Positions 3,357-24,851 of a stretch of 24,851 nucleotides of DNA are shown one piece after another. The position numbers and the translations under genes are program-made. Within the stretch, counting starts at the first letter, position 1. The number at the start of each line of letters is the position of its first letter. The stretch comes from a virus. The notes beneath the pieces are model-generated. The model had not been told where the DNA came from and did no database searches. It was given only the letters and a program-made list of their open reading frames with translations. The DNA is taken from IMG/VR virus record IMGVR_UViG_3300001460_000185, positions 1-24,851 of that record; one strand, written 5' to 3'.

Positions 3357-3508
3357 TTTTGCTCGCCTTGCGTATCTTCCCCAAGTAGTCTGCTAATGTA
3401 TTCTTCAACACTTTTTTCAGTGATATTTGAACCACCAAACGCTGCAAAGAATAGCAACGAAACTACAATTAAGAAAATAAACAGGCCAAACCATTCTGCT
3501 GTGGACAT
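3353..3508 (-). CDS. 51-residue single-span membrane protein
   Basis: The ATG shares one base with the stop of the exonuclease gene (TAATG). The hydrophobic span WFGLFIFLIVVSLLFFAAF covers residues about 6-24 and is followed by a polar, mostly acidic tail (about 25-51) containing a short amphipathic helix (EKSVEEYISRLLGE). The tail probably faces the cytoplasm if the N-terminus is outside. No family is recognised. Tight coupling between an exonuclease and a zinc ribbon supports a real gene. A membrane-anchoring or lysis role is possible but unproven. Confidence 0.55.
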   Translation of the reverse strand: MSTAEWFGLFIFLIVVSLLFFAAFGGSNITEKSVEEYISRLLGEDTQGEQK

Positions 3509-4110
3509 TACCAATCAACTCCTAAATCTATAAATTCTTCTTTTTCAATAGAGAATGCTTTTACAATACCATTCTCTTTACCATAACCCCAAAGGTCATA
3601 AACTAACTGTGTGTCTTTCATACAATATTCAACTACCTCATCATATCTTCCCATCTTCCATAACTTAGGTGCATCTGCACTATCCATGAGTTTTGAATCA
3701 TCCATAGTGCATTTAACTAAGTTTTTCAATTGGAATCTTTCTCCATGTCCTTTGAGTAAATCTTTACTAGTATCAATATATTGCTTGTCATTCAAATACT
3801 TATGAATGCAATATATATCCATTGAATCTCTCAAGATAGGCAAATCAAAGGCTACAATGTTATGCCCAAGTAATTGCCCGCCCTTTTGAAAATGGTCGTC
3901 TAAATCATATTTAAGTTCTTGTAAAGATTTAACAACATGACCACTTTTAGCAAATGAATCGACTGGCTCATCAACATAAACAGTTCCAGTAGTTCCATCC
4001 CATGTTGCTACTGTTGATACTTGAAACATGTGAGTATTACTAAAGCCACCTATTTCGTGTGACATGTTTTTTGTTTCAATATCCAGTGCTAAAACAGACA
4101 TAGGAATCAC
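3508..4110 (-). CDS. DnaQ-like DEDDy 3'-5' exonuclease
   Basis: This 200-residue stand-alone exonuclease removes nucleotides from DNA (or possibly RNA) 3' ends by two-metal chemistry. Visible motifs are Exo I LALDIET (D10, E12), Exo II GHNIVAFDLP (N84, D89), an extra IDTSKDL segment, and Exo III Y162-C-M-K-D166, the DEDDy signature. There is no polymerase domain. The start is either GTG at 4110, which overlaps the previous stop as GTGA, or ATG at 4101; neither has a clear ribosome binding site. The virus's PolB has its own exonuclease domain, so this is a second activity, perhaps for host DNA degradation, repair or Okazaki processing. Confidence 0.85.
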   Translation of the reverse strand: MIPMSVLALDIETKNMSHEIGGFSNTHMFQVSTVATWDGTTGTVYVDEPVDSFAKSGHVVKSLQELKYDLDDHFQKGGQLLGHNIVAFDLPILRDSMDIYCIHKYLNDKQYIDTSKDLLKGHGERFQLKNLVKCTMDDSKLMDSADAPKLWKMGRYDEVVEYCMKDTQLVYDLWGYGKENGIVKAFSIEKEEFIDLGVDW

Positions 4111-8992: not shown

Positions 8993-9877
8993 TTAAAACC
9001 AATCCTCTAATTTTGTTTGTAGTTTTCCTGTTCTTATGCTTGATAAGTCCCAATTCATCGCTCGATAAATAGGTTCGGCCTTTTTCAAGACCTGTTGTGC
9101 GTAGTGTTCCCAATCCGGTTCATAATCATTGAAGTCTTCATAGGTTGTGCCGGACATATATTCCACCGGCTTTTGTTCCTTAGTCAATGGGTTGATAAAG
9201 GTGTCGTTATGTTTAACTTTGAGAAATAAATACGAATCATCAAAGGTCATACCTAATTTCTGTTTAGCGTATAAAACGCCAGCAATTCCCGAACCCACAC
9301 TTGGTCGTTTTCCTTGTAAAGTCACAAACTTGCTTGTTTCAGTGCCGCACTTTGAACACCATTTAATATCCAAACATTCGTACAATCCATACTTTGAATT
9401 GCATTCATTACACTTAACTGTGAATCTGTCACTTTTCAATCTGCTTCTTTTTACTAAAGCAGAAATTGGTATATCTTTTTGTAATGCGGTTGTATAGATT
9501 GCATACAAAAATGCATTTATTTTTCCCAAAGGTTGTTGATTAACCCACTTCTTTAGTGCGTTAGTTTGAATCTCTTTTGCGAAAGGAGTTTCGCTTACTC
9601 TCTTAGCGGTAAATCCTGTCATGGTGAACTTAGGTTCATTCAACCATTCCCCATCCTCCCAAGTAATCATCCCAGCATTTCTGTTTTTTGTTGTGCCAAC
9701 TCCTAATGCGGAGTAATACTTTTCAAATTCCAATACAACGGGGTGTTGTTCTAATCCCATTACATTAGGGAAGTGTTCCCTAACAGAAGACTCTATTTCT
9801 TTGATAGCATCTTGCGCTAATTCAACTGAATCTATTTGAACATAGATTGAGTCAGTGTGTCCATAAACTACTTTCAT
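8993..9877 (-). CDS. polB: DNA polymerase B, C-terminal half (motif C, thumb, PIP box)
   Basis: This 294-residue chain starts with the motif C strand, MKVVYGHTDSIYV, and continues with FEKYYSAL, the KNRNAG element, TGFTAKRVSETPF, and the thumb. The second metal-binding Asp (D9) is kept; the first Asp of the usual YGDTDS is His (H7). Residues 156-177 carry five cysteines (CNEC, YEC, CSKC), a zinc-ribbon-like insertion. The last eight residues, QTKLEDWF, form a PCNA-interacting box. ATG at 9877 overlaps the upstream stop as ATGA with GGGAG upstream; a TTG at 9892 is less likely. It must pair with the N-terminal half at 10872-12554. Confidence 0.9.
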   Translation of the reverse strand: MKVVYGHTDSIYVQIDSVELAQDAIKEIESSVREHFPNVMGLEQHPVVLEFEKYYSALGVGTTKNRNAGMITWEDGEWLNEPKFTMTGFTAKRVSETPFAKEIQTNALKKWVNQQPLGKINAFLYAIYTTALQKDIPISALVKRSRLKSDRFTVKCNECNSKYGLYECLDIKWCSKCGTETSKFVTLQGKRPSVGSGIAGVLYAKQKLGMTFDDSYLFLKVKHNDTFINPLTKEQKPVEYMSGTTYEDFNDYEPDWEHYAQQVLKKAEPIYRAMNWDLSSIRTGKLQTKLEDWF

Positions 9878-10101
9878 TGAGAGTTCTCCCAAATGTTTTG
9901 CTGTTCTTCTAAATGTTCTTCGTATTTGTTAATACGCCATTGTTGATAAACTATACCTTTAGGTAGTTTTGGTAATTTTGTCAAATCCGGTCTAGTAATT
10001 TTAGGTAGTAAAAAACTACCCAAAAACCACTTTTTCATTTTATTCCAAAGTTCACTGTTCAGAAGTCCATGTTCTGTTAATTCTAAGATATATCTATTCA
10101 T
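9874..10101 (-). CDS. 75-residue protein preceding PolB C-terminal half
   Basis: I do not recognise this protein. It has an N-terminal helix (MNRYILELTEHGLLNSELW), a basic, Trp/Phe-containing middle (KMKKWFLGSFLLPK), a Pro/Lys segment with two LPK elements (LTKLPKLPKG), and a charged C-terminal helix with many Glu and Gln. Its stop overlaps the PolB-C ATG, so the two are translationally coupled. A role in polymerase assembly is possible but rests only on position. Confidence 0.5.
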   Translation of the reverse strand: MNRYILELTEHGLLNSELWNKMKKWFLGSFLLPKITRPDLTKLPKLPKGIVYQQWRINKYEEHLEEQQNIWENSQ

Positions 10102-10768: not shown

Positions 10769-10875
10769 TCTTCTTCACCTGTTATTTCTTTTATTATTCT
10801 TTCTGCTTCACACAACTTACAGTGATGCTTTGCCTCGAATTGAGGGTTGTGTTTTATTGGTTTTATGCATTTCAT
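10765..10875 (-). CDS. 36-residue Cys/His peptide directly after PolB N-terminal half
   Basis: The ATG overlaps the stop of the PolB N-terminal half as ATGA, and the stop overlaps the next start in the same way. It contains C3, H17-H18, C19 and C22 (HHCKLC), a possible small metal site, followed by a charged helix ending in three Glu. It is too short to assign. Coupling on both sides argues it is translated. Confidence 0.4.
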   Translation of the reverse strand: MKCIKPIKHNPQFEAKHHCKLCEAERIIKEITGEEE

Positions 10876-12554
10876 ACTTCCAACTCCTTCGCTTTGAATG
10901 CGGCTAAACGGATTGCTTCTCTTGCACTTGCTGTAATGCTTGCGGCCAAATTAACATCAGCCCAACCGAATCCTTGAAAGGCAACAATGCCATAAAAAGA
11001 AGCCATTAAACGCTTTACTGCCATTTGATTATTATGCCACTTAACTGCTTCTAAATCATCTCCGGCTTCCCTTGCATCTCGCATAAGTCGCTTATATTCA
11101 TTTCGCAACTCTTTCAGTTCAAGAACGGCTCTTGGCAACAAACCCAATTTATCTGTTTTGTAGTAAAGCATATGAGTTCTTTTTGCTTCGCTAAAATCCC
11201 TCGGTGTAGCAATATCACAACCAAATTCAGTAGGCTCTTCACTTTTAGTTTCCCATGAAATATTGCGAGCAATCATCATTGATGGGTACAATCCTGCAAA
11301 ATCAAAAGCGGCTACTTTAAGATGTAATCCATTTGTATTCTCACTAAGCGGGTCATAAATCATAGCACCTTCGTACTCTTCTCTTTTATCCACTTTACTT
11401 CCAGTCTTACAAATCCAATCTGCATTACGCATAAAGTAAATAGAACCCATATGACTTGCATAAAAACACGCTTCAAATGGTGCTTTAAGTAATCGTTGTA
11501 ATGCAATAATAGCCTCACTACAAAAGTTTGTTTCGTCTATTCGTACAAGCAATTCAACATCTATCAAAGCATATTTCAAATACGCTTCTGTGTCTTCAAG
11601 CCAACCCCTACGATAAAATTCATTCGGGTCTTCAAATTTAGTTTCTTTTGATTTACCTTCTCCGAATAAAGTCTGTGAAATATATTCAAGACTCATTGAT
11701 GGCAAAGTTCCTCTTTGTGAATCATTCCACTGACGCTCAAAAGCAAGGTCTAAATTGAGGGTTATGCGCCCCCCTAAAGGCTGTTGTATGGGAGAGAACC
11801 CACTTTCACCTTTAGAGAAAACAAAGCCATTACCAGCCTTCTTTACACCTTCTATGCGGTTAATAGGCGACATACGCATGGGGTTGATTCCCAACGCACA
11901 ACATCTTTCAAGTAGTTTAGGCAAATCGAACTTAAGTCCAAACCAAGCAATTAACATATCAGGGTCTTTATCAATCATATACTGAATAAAGGATTCAATC
12001 ATTTCTTTTTCAGTATTAAACCACTTAGTTTGAAACTCATGAATAGTTTTACCCGAAACCTGATGGTCAGTAATATTAGGTTCTAATCCTTTAGGAAACC
12101 ATACCCATTGATAATATTTTTTATCATAATTATCATAAACAACAATTACTGTAATCTTATCATGGTGTTCTCCACCTTGTTGCCATTCCATATCCCAATA
12201 CCACTTTCGCAGTTTAAATTCGGGTAGTTCGTCTAACTTATCAATAGCATATCTAAAACCAAAAGGTACATCTGCTTCGTATGTTTTATTCCACATCTTG
12301 CGAGCCTTGTAAATATCGGTGGCTTGTTCGACAATAACTTTTTTCAAGGGCTTTCCTTTTAATGAAAGCCAGTCACCCTTCTCATACTGGAAGGGTCTTG
12401 AAATATACTTGTTTAAGGTATAGTTCTCAAATTGAAACTCATCGTCTTCAATAAAGAAGTATGGTTCAAATGCTTCAAGTTTGAAGCGCCGTTCGCCGTT
12501 CTCTCTCCATGCTGTGTATATGTGTTTTTCATCTATGCATTTACTAATTATCAT
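10872..12554 (-). CDS. polB: DNA polymerase B, N-terminal half (exonuclease, motifs A and B)
   Basis: This 560-residue chain carries the 3'-5' exonuclease domain: WYWDMEW (D121, E123), AWFGLKFDLPKL (D210) and Y328-A-L-I-D332. EYEGAMIYDP links it to the polymerase domain. Motif A is AAFDFAGLYPSMM (catalytic D418); motif B is K514-RLMASFYG (Ala replaces the usual Asn of NSxYG). The chain ends at residue 560 just after the helix SAREAIRLAAFKAKELEV, exactly where single-chain enzymes run into motif C. Motif C is in the gene at 8993-9877. There is no intein sequence at the break. The Exo II Asn usually found before FD is not evident. Confidence 0.92.
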   Translation of the reverse strand: MIISKCIDEKHIYTAWRENGERRFKLEAFEPYFFIEDDEFQFENYTLNKYISRPFQYEKGDWLSLKGKPLKKVIVEQATDIYKARKMWNKTYEADVPFGFRYAIDKLDELPEFKLRKWYWDMEWQQGGEHHDKITVIVVYDNYDKKYYQWVWFPKGLEPNITDHQVSGKTIHEFQTKWFNTEKEMIESFIQYMIDKDPDMLIAWFGLKFDLPKLLERCCALGINPMRMSPINRIEGVKKAGNGFVFSKGESGFSPIQQPLGGRITLNLDLAFERQWNDSQRGTLPSMSLEYISQTLFGEGKSKETKFEDPNEFYRRGWLEDTEAYLKYALIDVELLVRIDETNFCSEAIIALQRLLKAPFEACFYASHMGSIYFMRNADWICKTGSKVDKREEYEGAMIYDPLSENTNGLHLKVAAFDFAGLYPSMMIARNISWETKSEEPTEFGCDIATPRDFSEAKRTHMLYYKTDKLGLLPRAVLELKELRNEYKRLMRDAREAGDDLEAVKWHNNQMAVKRLMASFYGIVAFQGFGWADVNLAASITASAREAIRLAAFKAKELEV

Positions 12555-21808: not shown

Positions 21809-23314
21809 TTATTCCTCCAATAATACTGCAACTTCAGTAGTCAAGAACAATGATGCAATTGATATGGCCGCATTAAAACTACTCTTTGTTACCTTTACTG
21901 GGTCAATGACTCCTGCTTCAAACAAGTCTTCATACTTTTCAGTGAGTGCATTGTAGCCATAATGGGGATTACCGTTTTGGAAAACATCAACATCAACATG
22001 ACCGCCATTTCTCAATAAAGCAAGAGTCGGTTCAGACAAAGCATCATAAACAATACTATGTCCTGTCTTTTCAATACTTAGATTCTTTCTAGCAGAAAGC
22101 AAACCAAGACCACCACCAACAATAATACCTTCAGCAAGTGCGGCCTTTGTAGCATTTAGCGCATCATCCAATCGTTCTTTCTTTTCACGCATTTCAATAG
22201 AAGAAGATGCACCAATTTGTATAGTAGCGATGCCACCACTTAATCTGGAAATACGCTTCTTCAAACGCTTCTTATCAAAATCATCATCAATAGTATCATA
22301 AACAGATTTCAGTGTCTTGATTCTTTCATCAGCAGATTCACCACCAATGATAGTCGTATTCTCTTTTGTAATGATAATCTTTTCACAAGTACCTAACTCT
22401 TCAAGAGTCACCAATTCGGGGTCGTCTTTGCTTTCATCAGTGTAAAGTTTTCCACCGACAATTGAAACAATGTCAGATAGTTCATCTAATTGAGCATCAC
22501 CAAAGTTAGGTGCTGTTACAACTGCAACTTCAATTGTCTTTTGAAGAACATTCATAATGATATTATTCAATGCACTTCCATCCATTCCTTTCACGAATAA
22601 AACAATCGGTCGCTTATTCACTGCCGCTAATTCCAACATTGGAAGAATCTCCGAAAAGTTCTTCAATGCTAAGTTAGAAGAAAAGATAAGAGGATTGACA
22701 AAGGTTACTTTACCATCCTCACCATTAGCCATTAAGTGACTCAAATACCCTTCATCAACTTCCAACCCTTTACGGACAATCATGCTAGTACGGTGACTAT
22801 TTGATTCTTCCACAGTAATGATACCATCACGGCCAACTCCTTCCAAAGCGGTATTAATTAAACCACCAAGATAACTGTCATTGTTTGCCGCAATTGTAGC
22901 AACAGAAACAATATCAGCATCACCAATATCACAAGCCATCATTTCAAGATGTTCAATAACAATATCTTGTGCTTCCTTCAATTCCTTTGAAAGAGTGTGA
23001 AGGTTAGCAACATCAGCATTAATGATATTTTGACACAATGCTCTAGCAATAATACAAGCAGTAGTAGTTCCGTCGCCGGATTTATCTTGTGCTTTACTTG
23101 CTAAATTTTGAACCATTTGAACCCCCATTTGAACATAAGGGTCGTCATGTGAAACATACTTTGTAATTGTAACACCGTCATTAATAATGACTGGTGGATT
23201 ACCTTGCAAAATTACAGTCTTGGCTTGGGGGCCAAGAGTAGGTAATACTGTTTTAGCAACTAAATCAATTCCTTCCCATAGTTTTTGTTTTACTTCTTCT
23301 CCATGTATAATCAT
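21809..23314 (-). CDS. groEL: Group I chaperonin (GroEL-like)
   Basis: The 501 residues show the Hsp60 order: LPTLGPQAKTVIL, the ATP-site GDGTTT (80-85), an apical domain (about 180-340), and the second equatorial part with LSGGIATIQIGA and DALNATKAALAEGIIVGGG. This is bacterial-type group I, not the thermosome usual in archaea. The C-terminus ends AVLLEE and lacks the GGM-rich tail of GroEL (548 residues). It is in the same operon as a GroES-like gene. It probably forms a folding cage for capsid or replication proteins. GGAGGAATAAGAT precedes the ATG. Confidence 0.95.
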   Translation of the reverse strand: MIIHGEEVKQKLWEGIDLVAKTVLPTLGPQAKTVILQGNPPVIINDGVTITKYVSHDDPYVQMGVQMVQNLASKAQDKSGDGTTTACIIARALCQNIINADVANLHTLSKELKEAQDIVIEHLEMMACDIGDADIVSVATIAANNDSYLGGLINTALEGVGRDGIITVEESNSHRTSMIVRKGLEVDEGYLSHLMANGEDGKVTFVNPLIFSSNLALKNFSEILPMLELAAVNKRPIVLFVKGMDGSALNNIIMNVLQKTIEVAVVTAPNFGDAQLDELSDIVSIVGGKLYTDESKDDPELVTLEELGTCEKIIITKENTTIIGGESADERIKTLKSVYDTIDDDFDKKRLKKRISRLSGGIATIQIGASSSIEMREKKERLDDALNATKAALAEGIIVGGGLGLLSARKNLSIEKTGHSIVYDALSEPTLALLRNGGHVDVDVFQNGNPHYGYNALTEKYEDLFEAGVIDPVKVTKSSFNAAISIASLFLTTEVAVLLEE

Positions 23315-23327
23315 ATCTTATTCCTCC

Positions 23328-23654
23328 TTAAAACGACTTACCATGCATATACTCACGGTTTTTATTGTATTCAATCTTTGCTATAATAGCACCAGCAATA
23401 TCTAAATCATTACCAAAGGCATAATCCATGATACGAATTACCGTATCTGCCAATTCTTCTTCAAGACTACTGTATTCAATAATCTTGTTAGATGATGGAT
23501 TTCCATTCCTTAGTGCTTCAAGTGCTTCACTAAGTTCAGAATGCATTAGAGCAATTCTTTCAGCATCATTAGGGTCTTCTTCCCAGAAACCATGTTTAAC
23601 TGCGTTCTTGTAAATTTTCTTAGAGATTCTATCCCATTCTTTTTCAAAATTCAT
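23328..23654 (-). CDS. MazG-like nucleotide pyrophosphohydrolase
   Basis: These 108 residues show the all-alpha NTP pyrophosphatase signature ExxE(x23)ExxD: E40-L-S-E43 and E67-L-A-D70, in the helices ALMHSELSEALEALRNG and EEELADTVIRIMDYA. Such enzymes hydrolyse (d)NTPs or alarmones and are common in marine phages, where they are thought to adjust nucleotide pools or the starvation response. The gene lies between GroES-like and GroEL genes; the start overlaps the GroES stop as ATGA. Confidence 0.85.
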   Translation of the reverse strand: MNFEKEWDRISKKIYKNAVKHGFWEEDPNDAERIALMHSELSEALEALRNGNPSSNKIIEYSSLEEELADTVIRIMDYAFGNDLDIAGAIIAKIEYNKNREYMHGKSF

Positions 23655-23887
23655 TGTTTCACCTCATATGCATATATCTTGGAGAAGGGAACCACTGTTA
23701 GACTCCCAATCATTTGATATTTAGTACCAGTGTTATCAAAATATACGGTATTACCTACCAAGTATTCATATTCCTTGCTGGTACTTAGGCATTGGCCTTT
23801 GTTGTCTGATTTACTAACGATACCACTACTTCGGCTTGTTTGTTCTGTTTCAACAAGAATCCATTCTCCACAACCTCTTAGAATCAT
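23651..23887 (-). CDS. groES: GroES-like co-chaperonin
   Basis: This 78-residue protein is shorter than GroES (97) but shows its plan: N-terminal strand GEWILVETE, a Ser-rich mobile-loop stretch SRSSGIVSK (compare GGIVL in GroES), then VGNTVYFDNTG (compare VGDIVIFN) and a closing strand KIYAYEV (compare ILAIVE). No other GroES is visible, and a GroEL gene is one gene away. It probably caps the viral chaperonin, in the way phage T4 gp31 works with host GroEL. Identity is inferred from these matches. Confidence 0.65.
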   Translation of the reverse strand: MILRGCGEWILVETEQTSRSSGIVSKSDNKGQCLSTSKEYEYLVGNTVYFDNTGTKYQMIGSLTVVPFSKIYAYEVKQ

Positions 23888-24133: not shown

Positions 24134-24411
24134 TCTTCTTCCTCCTTTCCAGCGATTCGCACCCAAGCCTTATTCATGTCTTTGTCAACAAATGTATAAA
24201 CATGGTTCTTGTAAAATTCATTCATTTTATCAGTGTTCTTTCCGACCTTACCCCAAGTAATGCCCTTCCTTTGGCGTGTATTCCCCAAATCAGCAGGGTG
24301 GTTTTCTGCATGTTTCTTGGTTCGTTCTGTAAGCGTAATGGATTTATACTCCATCATTGGCCTATCTTGGTATTTATGCATCGTGCTTATTCCTTCTTTT
24401 ATTTTGCTCAT
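24130..24411 (-). CDS. Unknown 93-residue basic protein
   Basis: This protein is Lys/Arg-rich with no cysteines. The central part GNTRQRKGITWGKVGKNTDK has Gly/Lys repeats, followed by a helix and a strand-like VYTFVDKDMNKAWVRI. The C-terminal EEEE overlaps the ribosome binding site of the next gene. The start overlaps the JAMM stop as ATGA. No family recognised; the basic character would allow nucleic acid binding. Confidence 0.45.
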   Translation of the reverse strand: MSKIKEGISTMHKYQDRPMMEYKSITLTERTKKHAENHPADLGNTRQRKGITWGKVGKNTDKMNEFYKNHVYTFVDKDMNKAWVRIAGKEEEE

Positions 24412-24851
24412 TCTTCTTCACTTCCATTTTTGTATTGTATTTTATATAAGCCATCTTTATGAATACATAATTCATTTGGGGTTTCTTGTTCCCAATGCCC
24501 GAAATGGTCAGGGCCACCTAAAACATAGGCACTTTCCATCAATGGTTCCCAAATAGAAACCGTTCTCCAATCAGTGCCACTGAAATATGCGGCTCCAAAA
24601 GGATGAGTATGAATCCAACATTTAACAGGTAAAGTCATACCAACAGGGTCAATCTTAAAATCAACAAAACCTGCTGTTCCATAAGAGATGTGAAGTTTAT
24701 CTCCACCATCAACAACTACTTGAACCTCAAGTCCATTTAGAATAACAGTTGATGCTTTCCAAATAGAAAGGTGAAAGAACTCATTCGTAAAGTCTTTGTC
24801 TGCTTTGATGTATTCTTCCATAATAGAAGATTCGATAGCATCTTGAAAGAA
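24408..24851 (-). CDS. JAMM/MPN+ metalloprotease-like protein, 5'-partial at window edge
   Basis: The frame is open through the right edge; ATG at 24821 gives a 137-residue form but has no ribosome binding site, so the true start may lie outside. The signature CWIHTHPFGAAYFSGTDW fits the JAMM zinc site HxHx7SxxD exactly (H71, H73, S81, D84 in the 137-residue form). JAMM enzymes remove ubiquitin-like tags; related domains also occur in phage tail assembly proteases. The upstream catalytic Glu is not firmly located. No ubiquitin-like gene is visible in this window. Confidence 0.75.
   Translation of the reverse strand, partial: FFQDAIESSIMEEYIKADKDFTNEFFHLSIWKASTVILNGLEVQVVVDGGDKLHISYGTAGFVDFKIDPVGMTLPVKCWIHTHPFGAAYFSGTDWRTVSIWEPLMESAYVLGGPDHFGHWEQETPNELCIHKDGLYKIQYKNGSEEE

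Follow-up and report, generated by a model that had tools for sequence, protein, structure and literature searches.

The window, the whole 24,851-base stretch of DNA analysed here (virus record IMGVR_UViG_3300001460_000185), carries a group I groEL with a short groES-like gene one gene upstream, and we read this pair, with a probability of roughly 0.72, as a dedicated GroEL-GroES folding cage encoded by a tailed virus of the magrovirus type whose hosts are marine Poseidoniales archaea; the figure applies to the reading as a whole, assignment of the virus included. The magrovirus ring-lid pair is built in an unusually trimmed form, in the segment that joins the two rings, in the C-terminal tail of the ring and in the mobile loop of the lid. 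All three ORFs of the locus singled out by the initial annotation (groEL, MazG-like and groES-like) were present on the minus strand with the coordinates given in Table 1.

Table 1. Position and supporting evidence of the features of the window that are discussed in the text
Feature	Position	Strand	Evidence or remark
groEL, group I chaperonin, 501 aa	21809..23314	(-)	Pfam, PHROG, PDB sequences, structure model
MazG-like pyrophosphohydrolase, 108 aa	23328..23654	(-)	PHROG pyrophosphatase
groES-like co-chaperonin (lid), 78 aa	23651..23887	(-)	family conservation, AlphaFold model, PDB structure matches, profile-profile
133-aa Cys-rich conserved protein, downstream of groEL	21130..21531	(-)	second bait for linkage
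ATP-dependent DNA ligase	18643-20172	(-)	
Clamp loader	15758-16672	(-)	PHROG 5.6e-57
Family B DNA polymerase, two ORFs	10872-12554 + 8993-9892	(-)	other ORFs between
ERCC4/HhH nuclease		(-)	groEL-strand neighbour
PD-(D/E)XK nuclease		(-)	groEL-strand neighbour

Virus group and previous descriptions

The gene set of the window (split PolB, clamp loader, ATP ligase, GroEL and GroES) fits the family Aoguangviridae of the order Magrovirales (PMC10768690). According to the ICTV profile of this family, aoguangvirids encode GroEL and GroES, and a figure legend in the same source lists a split PolB for aoguangvirus YSH_150918, a tailed magrovirus of marine archaea that likewise encodes a group I GroEL and a GroES (PMC10768690). 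Compared by description only, the family has the same two-part PolB, primase, ATP ligase and clamp loader (PMC10768690), the primase match in the window being weak (E 0.055-0.067, below cut-off). A virus-encoded group I GroEL of the same kind is also described for the MGII virus clades 2-4 of Nishimura et al. 2017 (PMC5332604, available excerpt).

The initial annotation had called a virus with both ring and lid uncommon, a judgement that proved too strong: the pair is standard in this group (67 of the 67 loci in which both genes could be reached), magroviruses of marine Poseidoniales with both genes have been published (PMC10768690), and the two genes are also annotated in some Flavobacterium and Cellulophaga phages. 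What appears to us to be new is the shortening of the ring-ring segment, the partial loss of the mobile loop of the lid, the branching of the viral GroEL with Thermoplasmatota and the occurrence of GroEL in 27/193 genomes of the host order. In the literature searched, Philosof 2017 and Prabhu 2025 excepted, we found no description of the lid shape or of the interface deletion, and chaperonin terms are absent from Xu 2023.

Three further features of the window were recorded. The 133-aa protein, a steady downstream neighbour of groEL in these viruses, contains cysteine pairs of the CPIC/CKVC type and gave no convincing family match in Pfam and PHROGs; the same marker was found in 0/193 host-order genomes in a search run without a positive control. 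Positions 24408-24821 gave a weak match to a JAB-type metalloprotease (Pfam Prok-JAB, E=0.0017, below the curated cut-off), and positions 3508-4110 matched a DnaQ-like exonuclease (PHROG DNA polymerase exonuclease subunit, 1.8e-7).

Linkage of groEL and groES

groEL and the short groES are a fixed unit in these viruses. Among 42 loci selected by GroEL (41 loci and the window), a profile search found the short groES upstream of groEL, on the groEL strand, in 39, and in the three loci without it (L003, L004 and L040) the contigs start too near, or inside, groEL. A second set of 80 loci, which shares many contigs with the GroEL-selected set, was fetched with the 133-aa downstream protein, a bait that is itself a neighbour of groEL. 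groEL was present in 74/80 of these loci and both genes in 67/80; in the remaining 13 the contig begins within or near the missing gene, and both genes were found in 67/67 of the marker loci whose contig extends far enough upstream.

The MazG-like gene follows a different pattern from the one first proposed, namely a single cluster of GroEL, MazG and GroES genes. The three genes do lie side by side in the window and its nearest relatives, with MazG between groES and groEL in 15/39 loci, and this adjacency is what a functional cluster would predict; yet MazG is absent from this position in 24/39 loci, and in 12/39 the groES stop abuts or overlaps the groEL start. The cluster therefore stands as a description of the window and its close relatives, is refuted as a general rule by gene order across the 39 loci, and is most improbable as one functional unit of all three genes. 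The MazG-like protein, whose identity comes from PHROG alone (pyrophosphatase phrog_3301, E=3.4e-29; no Pfam match), probably plays no part in the folding machine.

We also noted that one contig of 184733 bases, IMGVR_UViG_3300021958_000021, contains two different magrovirus groEL-groES loci (L037/L096 and L070), and may represent two viruses joined in assembly.

The GroES-like lid

By predicted structure and profile comparison, the 78-aa protein is of the GroES-like beta-barrel fold. Family searches with the window lid returned no family in Pfam or PHROGs, Pfam Cpn10 (PF00166, cut-off 21.1 bits) included, and when 28 relatives of the lid were scanned singly three matched Pfam Cpn10 weakly (best E=0.018) and nine weakly matched the PHROG co-chaperonin GroES (best 0.0089). 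Neither phmmer nor the lid-family profile found a significant GroES among PDB sequences, Cpn20 ranking third at E=0.82 with the profile. An AlphaFold model made from the 28 aligned rows of the lid family (28 representatives) reached a pLDDT of 86.0, and Foldseek comparison of this model with the PDB placed GroES/Cpn10-type structures at all of ranks 1-28 (best E=1.6e-3, none at E<=0.001). VIA-align likewise gave co-chaperonins at all of ranks 1-16, with Z from 8.4 down to 5.9 (best match Z 8.4, rmsd 2.1, 72 aligned); the first rows of another kind were MDR-type oxidoreductases, from Z 5.7, and phage gp31 (1g31, Z 5.9; 2cgt, Z 6.4) was about level with these unrelated enzymes. An hhalign comparison with 20 Poseidoniales, three bacterial and three phage GroES sequences aligned the lid family over its whole length, with E=3.7e-6 in global and 9.8e-6 in local mode, E being reckoned for one comparison, and a probability of 73-83%. 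The initial annotation had made its case depend on the 78-residue protein folding as GroES, and the model matches GroES/Cpn10 in both structural searches; the shortened partner that it had placed one gene upstream of groEL was likewise confirmed.

Within the lid family the putative mobile loop carries an SGI-type motif, the isoleucine of which is invariant in 28/28 sequences, and a glycine is invariant in the alignment as well. The hhalign alignment makes the viral loop about 5 residues shorter than that of cellular GroES, with the gap falling after SGI, and also shows the viral lid to be short at the position of the E. coli GroES roof hairpin, where the Poseidoniales lids, of 88-90 aa, are short too. 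Purifying selection acts on groES, groEL and mazG alike, with a dN/dS for groES of 0.046-0.073 in three of five comparisons with dS unsaturated. Because of this selection, and of its place upstream of groEL in 39 of 42 loci, the lid ORF is not a chance reading frame.

The GroEL ring

On sequence comparison the window GroEL is closer to group I chaperonins than to thermosomes, as the initial annotation had held. Pfam Cpn60_TCP1 matched residues 19-494 (E=7.7e-44), the PHROG GroEL family matched with E=2.9e-110, and all 60 of the PDB sequence matches listed (best E=4e-106) were group I Cpn60/GroEL proteins. The apical segment of the viral GroELs spans 181-187 residues, against 187 in E. coli, and has no helical protrusion insert; a predicted model of the window GroEL (pLDDT 78.7) matches GroEL/Hsp60 structures along its 501 residues, the best structural match being GroEL 8wuw_H (Z 41.4). 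D52, D87 and D398, which from the roles of the E. coli residues we take to be the ATPase aspartates, are kept in 71/71 distinct magrovirus GroELs, the window included, and the apical positions L234, L237, L259 and V263 are hydrophobic in the same 71.

Two parts of the ring are reduced. The C-terminus of the window GroEL reads LLEE, and the GGM tail, correctly reported as lacking in this protein, is found in 0/34 distinct viral GroELs and 0/7 phage GroELs, as against 7/7 of the Poseidoniales GroELs looked at (one partly masked). Anchors 417 and 476 of E. coli GroEL bound a segment that contains the ring-ring contacts E434, R452, E461, S463 and V464; this segment has 43-56 residues in 71/71 distinct viral GroELs and is thus 4-17 residues shorter than the 60 of E. 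coli; it has 59-62 residues in 26/26 Poseidoniales GroELs and varies from 51 to 79 in ten phage GroELs. We relied on segment lengths between conserved anchors because the alignments are unsure at single interface residues and at positions 203/204. The titles of PDB entries among the structure matches of the GroEL model include E434K, E461K and the SR1 single-ring mutant. The shortened segment suggests altered ring stacking in the viral GroEL, short of demonstrating a single ring. A bolder proposal, which we put forward tentatively and hold to be rather doubtful, is that of a minimal viral chaperonin, in which the canonical ring-ring contacts would be lost and a single or loosely joined ring would be served by a roofless, short-loop lid fitting only that ring. 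Were it true, virus proteins would be folded in this way in archaea that are mostly without any group I chaperonin, and cage and lid would have co-evolved outside any host GroE system.

The apical face also differs from that of E. coli, since neither Y203 nor F204 is kept in any of the 71 viral GroELs (the residues that replace them depend on the alignment), whereas Poseidoniales GroELs keep Y203 in 26/26 and F204 in 14/26. This change and the shorter mobile loop are features that a lidless holdase might be expected to show, in which case the viral GroEL would act like phage EL gp146 and the 78-aa protein would be a degenerate remnant that has ceased to cap it; the phage EL chaperonin keeps proteins from aggregating, shows no interaction with E. 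coli GroES and does not refold rhodanese (PMC7185714, available excerpt). We regard such a loss of capping as unlikely. Wherever the contig extends to the lid position, the lid gene is found with groEL, and a remnant would decay, whereas the viral lid is under purifying selection and retains its loop isoleucine throughout the family.

Proposed mode of action and comparison with known systems

We therefore return to the folding cage as the preferred reading, for which we infer the assembly, the number of rings and the clients. The hydrophobic apical helices of the viral GroEL ring would take up unfolded protein; once ATP is bound, the small lid of the virus would be recruited by way of its shortened mobile loop with the SGI motif, and the client would fold inside the lid-closed cage. 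The ring would have descended from the group I lineage of some Thermoplasmatota and later have lost its tail and part of the segment joining the two rings.

The clients of the cage may be considered from gene position and by analogy. groEL lies within a block of replication genes on one strand (DNA ligase, clamp loader and split PolB), so its position gives no pointer to the capsid, and this setting would suit a pair that serves the virus replisome, or one that acts as a general aid in stress and host proteostasis; we judge such non-capsid roles possible, at well below even odds. T4 gene 31 is not adjacent to gene 23, which makes gene position weak evidence either way. The argument against a role away from the capsid is an indirect one: in T4, gp31 acts on the capsid protein gp23 and is needed for it (PMC6318259, available excerpt), and by this analogy the folding of capsid protein by the viral pair is plausible. 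Like the viral lid, gp31 is a phage-made lid of GroES fold and is without roof loops, a feature that the viral lid shares by alignment; its mobile loop is longer (22 vs 16 residues), whereas that of the viral lid is shorter, and gp31 caps the host GroEL, whereas here the ring is viral too (PMC6318259, available excerpt).

Other viral chaperonins resemble the pair in part. Flavobacterium phages immuto and elemo and Cellulophaga phage Calle_1 have annotated ring and lid genes, adjacent or one gene apart, which differ from the magrovirus pair in having lids of 83-101 aa, GroELs outside the archaeal-viral clade and bacterial hosts. Phage EL gp146 and AR9 gp228 are viral group I-like rings too. The EL chaperonin has altered ring-ring contacts (PMC7185714, available excerpt) and is listed as needing no co-chaperonin (PMC5934643, available excerpt); AR9 gp228, the one of the two placed in a first tree, was very divergent there from the window GroEL. 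Among cellular systems the GroEL-GroES of Poseidoniales is, with that of other Thermoplasmatota, the nearest relative, and its lids are similarly short at the roof hairpin; unlike the viral proteins, its rings keep the GGM tail (7/7 looked at) and the full ring-ring segment, and its lids keep a longer mobile loop.

If confirmed, the magrovirus proteins would constitute a natural GroE pair of ring and lid of very small size, with which a virus brings a complete folding cage into a thermosome-folding cell of an order that, as sampled, is mostly without group I chaperonins. With ring and lid both viral and the host background usually blank, the pair would be a clean test system for how much of the lid loop, the roof and the ring-ring contact caged folding needs, and for whether the capsid proteins of the virus demand a cage of their own.

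Origin of the viral GroEL and chaperonins of the host order

Judged from a GroEL phylogeny, the nearest cellular relatives found of the viral GroEL are archaeal GroELs of the Thermoplasmatota. The tree comprises 60 rows, among them 33 magrovirus, 12 Poseidoniales, five Thermoplasmatota, five bacterial and five phage sequences; in a first tree long branches met, and AR9, Manatee Spring, Calle_1, elemoF and YC were dropped before the tree was rebuilt. The 33 magrovirus GroELs form one clade (support 100/100), and together with the 12 Poseidoniales and four other Thermoplasmatota GroELs they split from the five bacterial and five phage sequences (100/100), few bacterial phyla being sampled in this comparison. 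The fifth Thermoplasmatota GroEL (L264) fell outside the grouping, towards bacteria and phages. As sister of the viral clade, Poseidoniales alone and Poseidoniales plus the four other Thermoplasmatota rows were not separated by the topology test (p-AU 0.106). The viral stem is long, at 1.3 changes per column, and the event is therefore probably old.

Of the description of the chaperonin as bacterial-type, the assignment to group I thus held, while its cellular affinity proved to be archaeal; the comparison with host and bacterial Hsp60 that had been suggested as a check set the viral protein with Poseidoniales and four other Thermoplasmatota, apart from bacteria and phages. That the chaperonin is of group I would agree with direct acquisition of the pair from a bacterium or a bacteriophage. 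Such a source is very unlikely given the fully supported split from the five bacterial sequences, of few phyla, and the five phage sequences, and given that a grouping of magrovirus with phage GroELs was rejected with p-AU 1.1e-15. The affinity of viral GroEL to Thermoplasmatota agrees with Nishimura et al. 2017, who found GroEL in 20/58 putative MGII virus genomes, grouping with MGII GroEL (PMC5332604, available excerpt). In the same source 18 other putative MGII virus genomes had a thermosome, so that the lifestyle is possible with a thermosome in place of a group I chaperonin (PMC5332604, available excerpt).

Host-order genomes were sampled as 193 genomes of the order of G001 (MG-II). GroEL was found in 27/193, GroES in 30/193 and both in 26, and the true share may be higher because the genomes are largely partial and their completeness is unstated; in a sample of the phylum GroEL was matched in 20/292 genomes. 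Two host-order genomes, at G126:C205 and G151:C20, carry a weak, longer Cpn10-like ORF (frames of 133-139 aa) and no GroEL match. A search among genome contigs for a close relative of the viral-type GroEL yielded 20 stretches that matched the pattern, of which 0 were confirmed. An 18-base probe pattern reached 67 genome contigs, most of them titled as Marine Group II, Poseidoniales or Euryarchaeota; the search for GroEL covered 24 of these, and GroEL exceeded the family cut-off in 3/24, with weaker GroEL-profile matches in 24/24 that we read as thermosomes.
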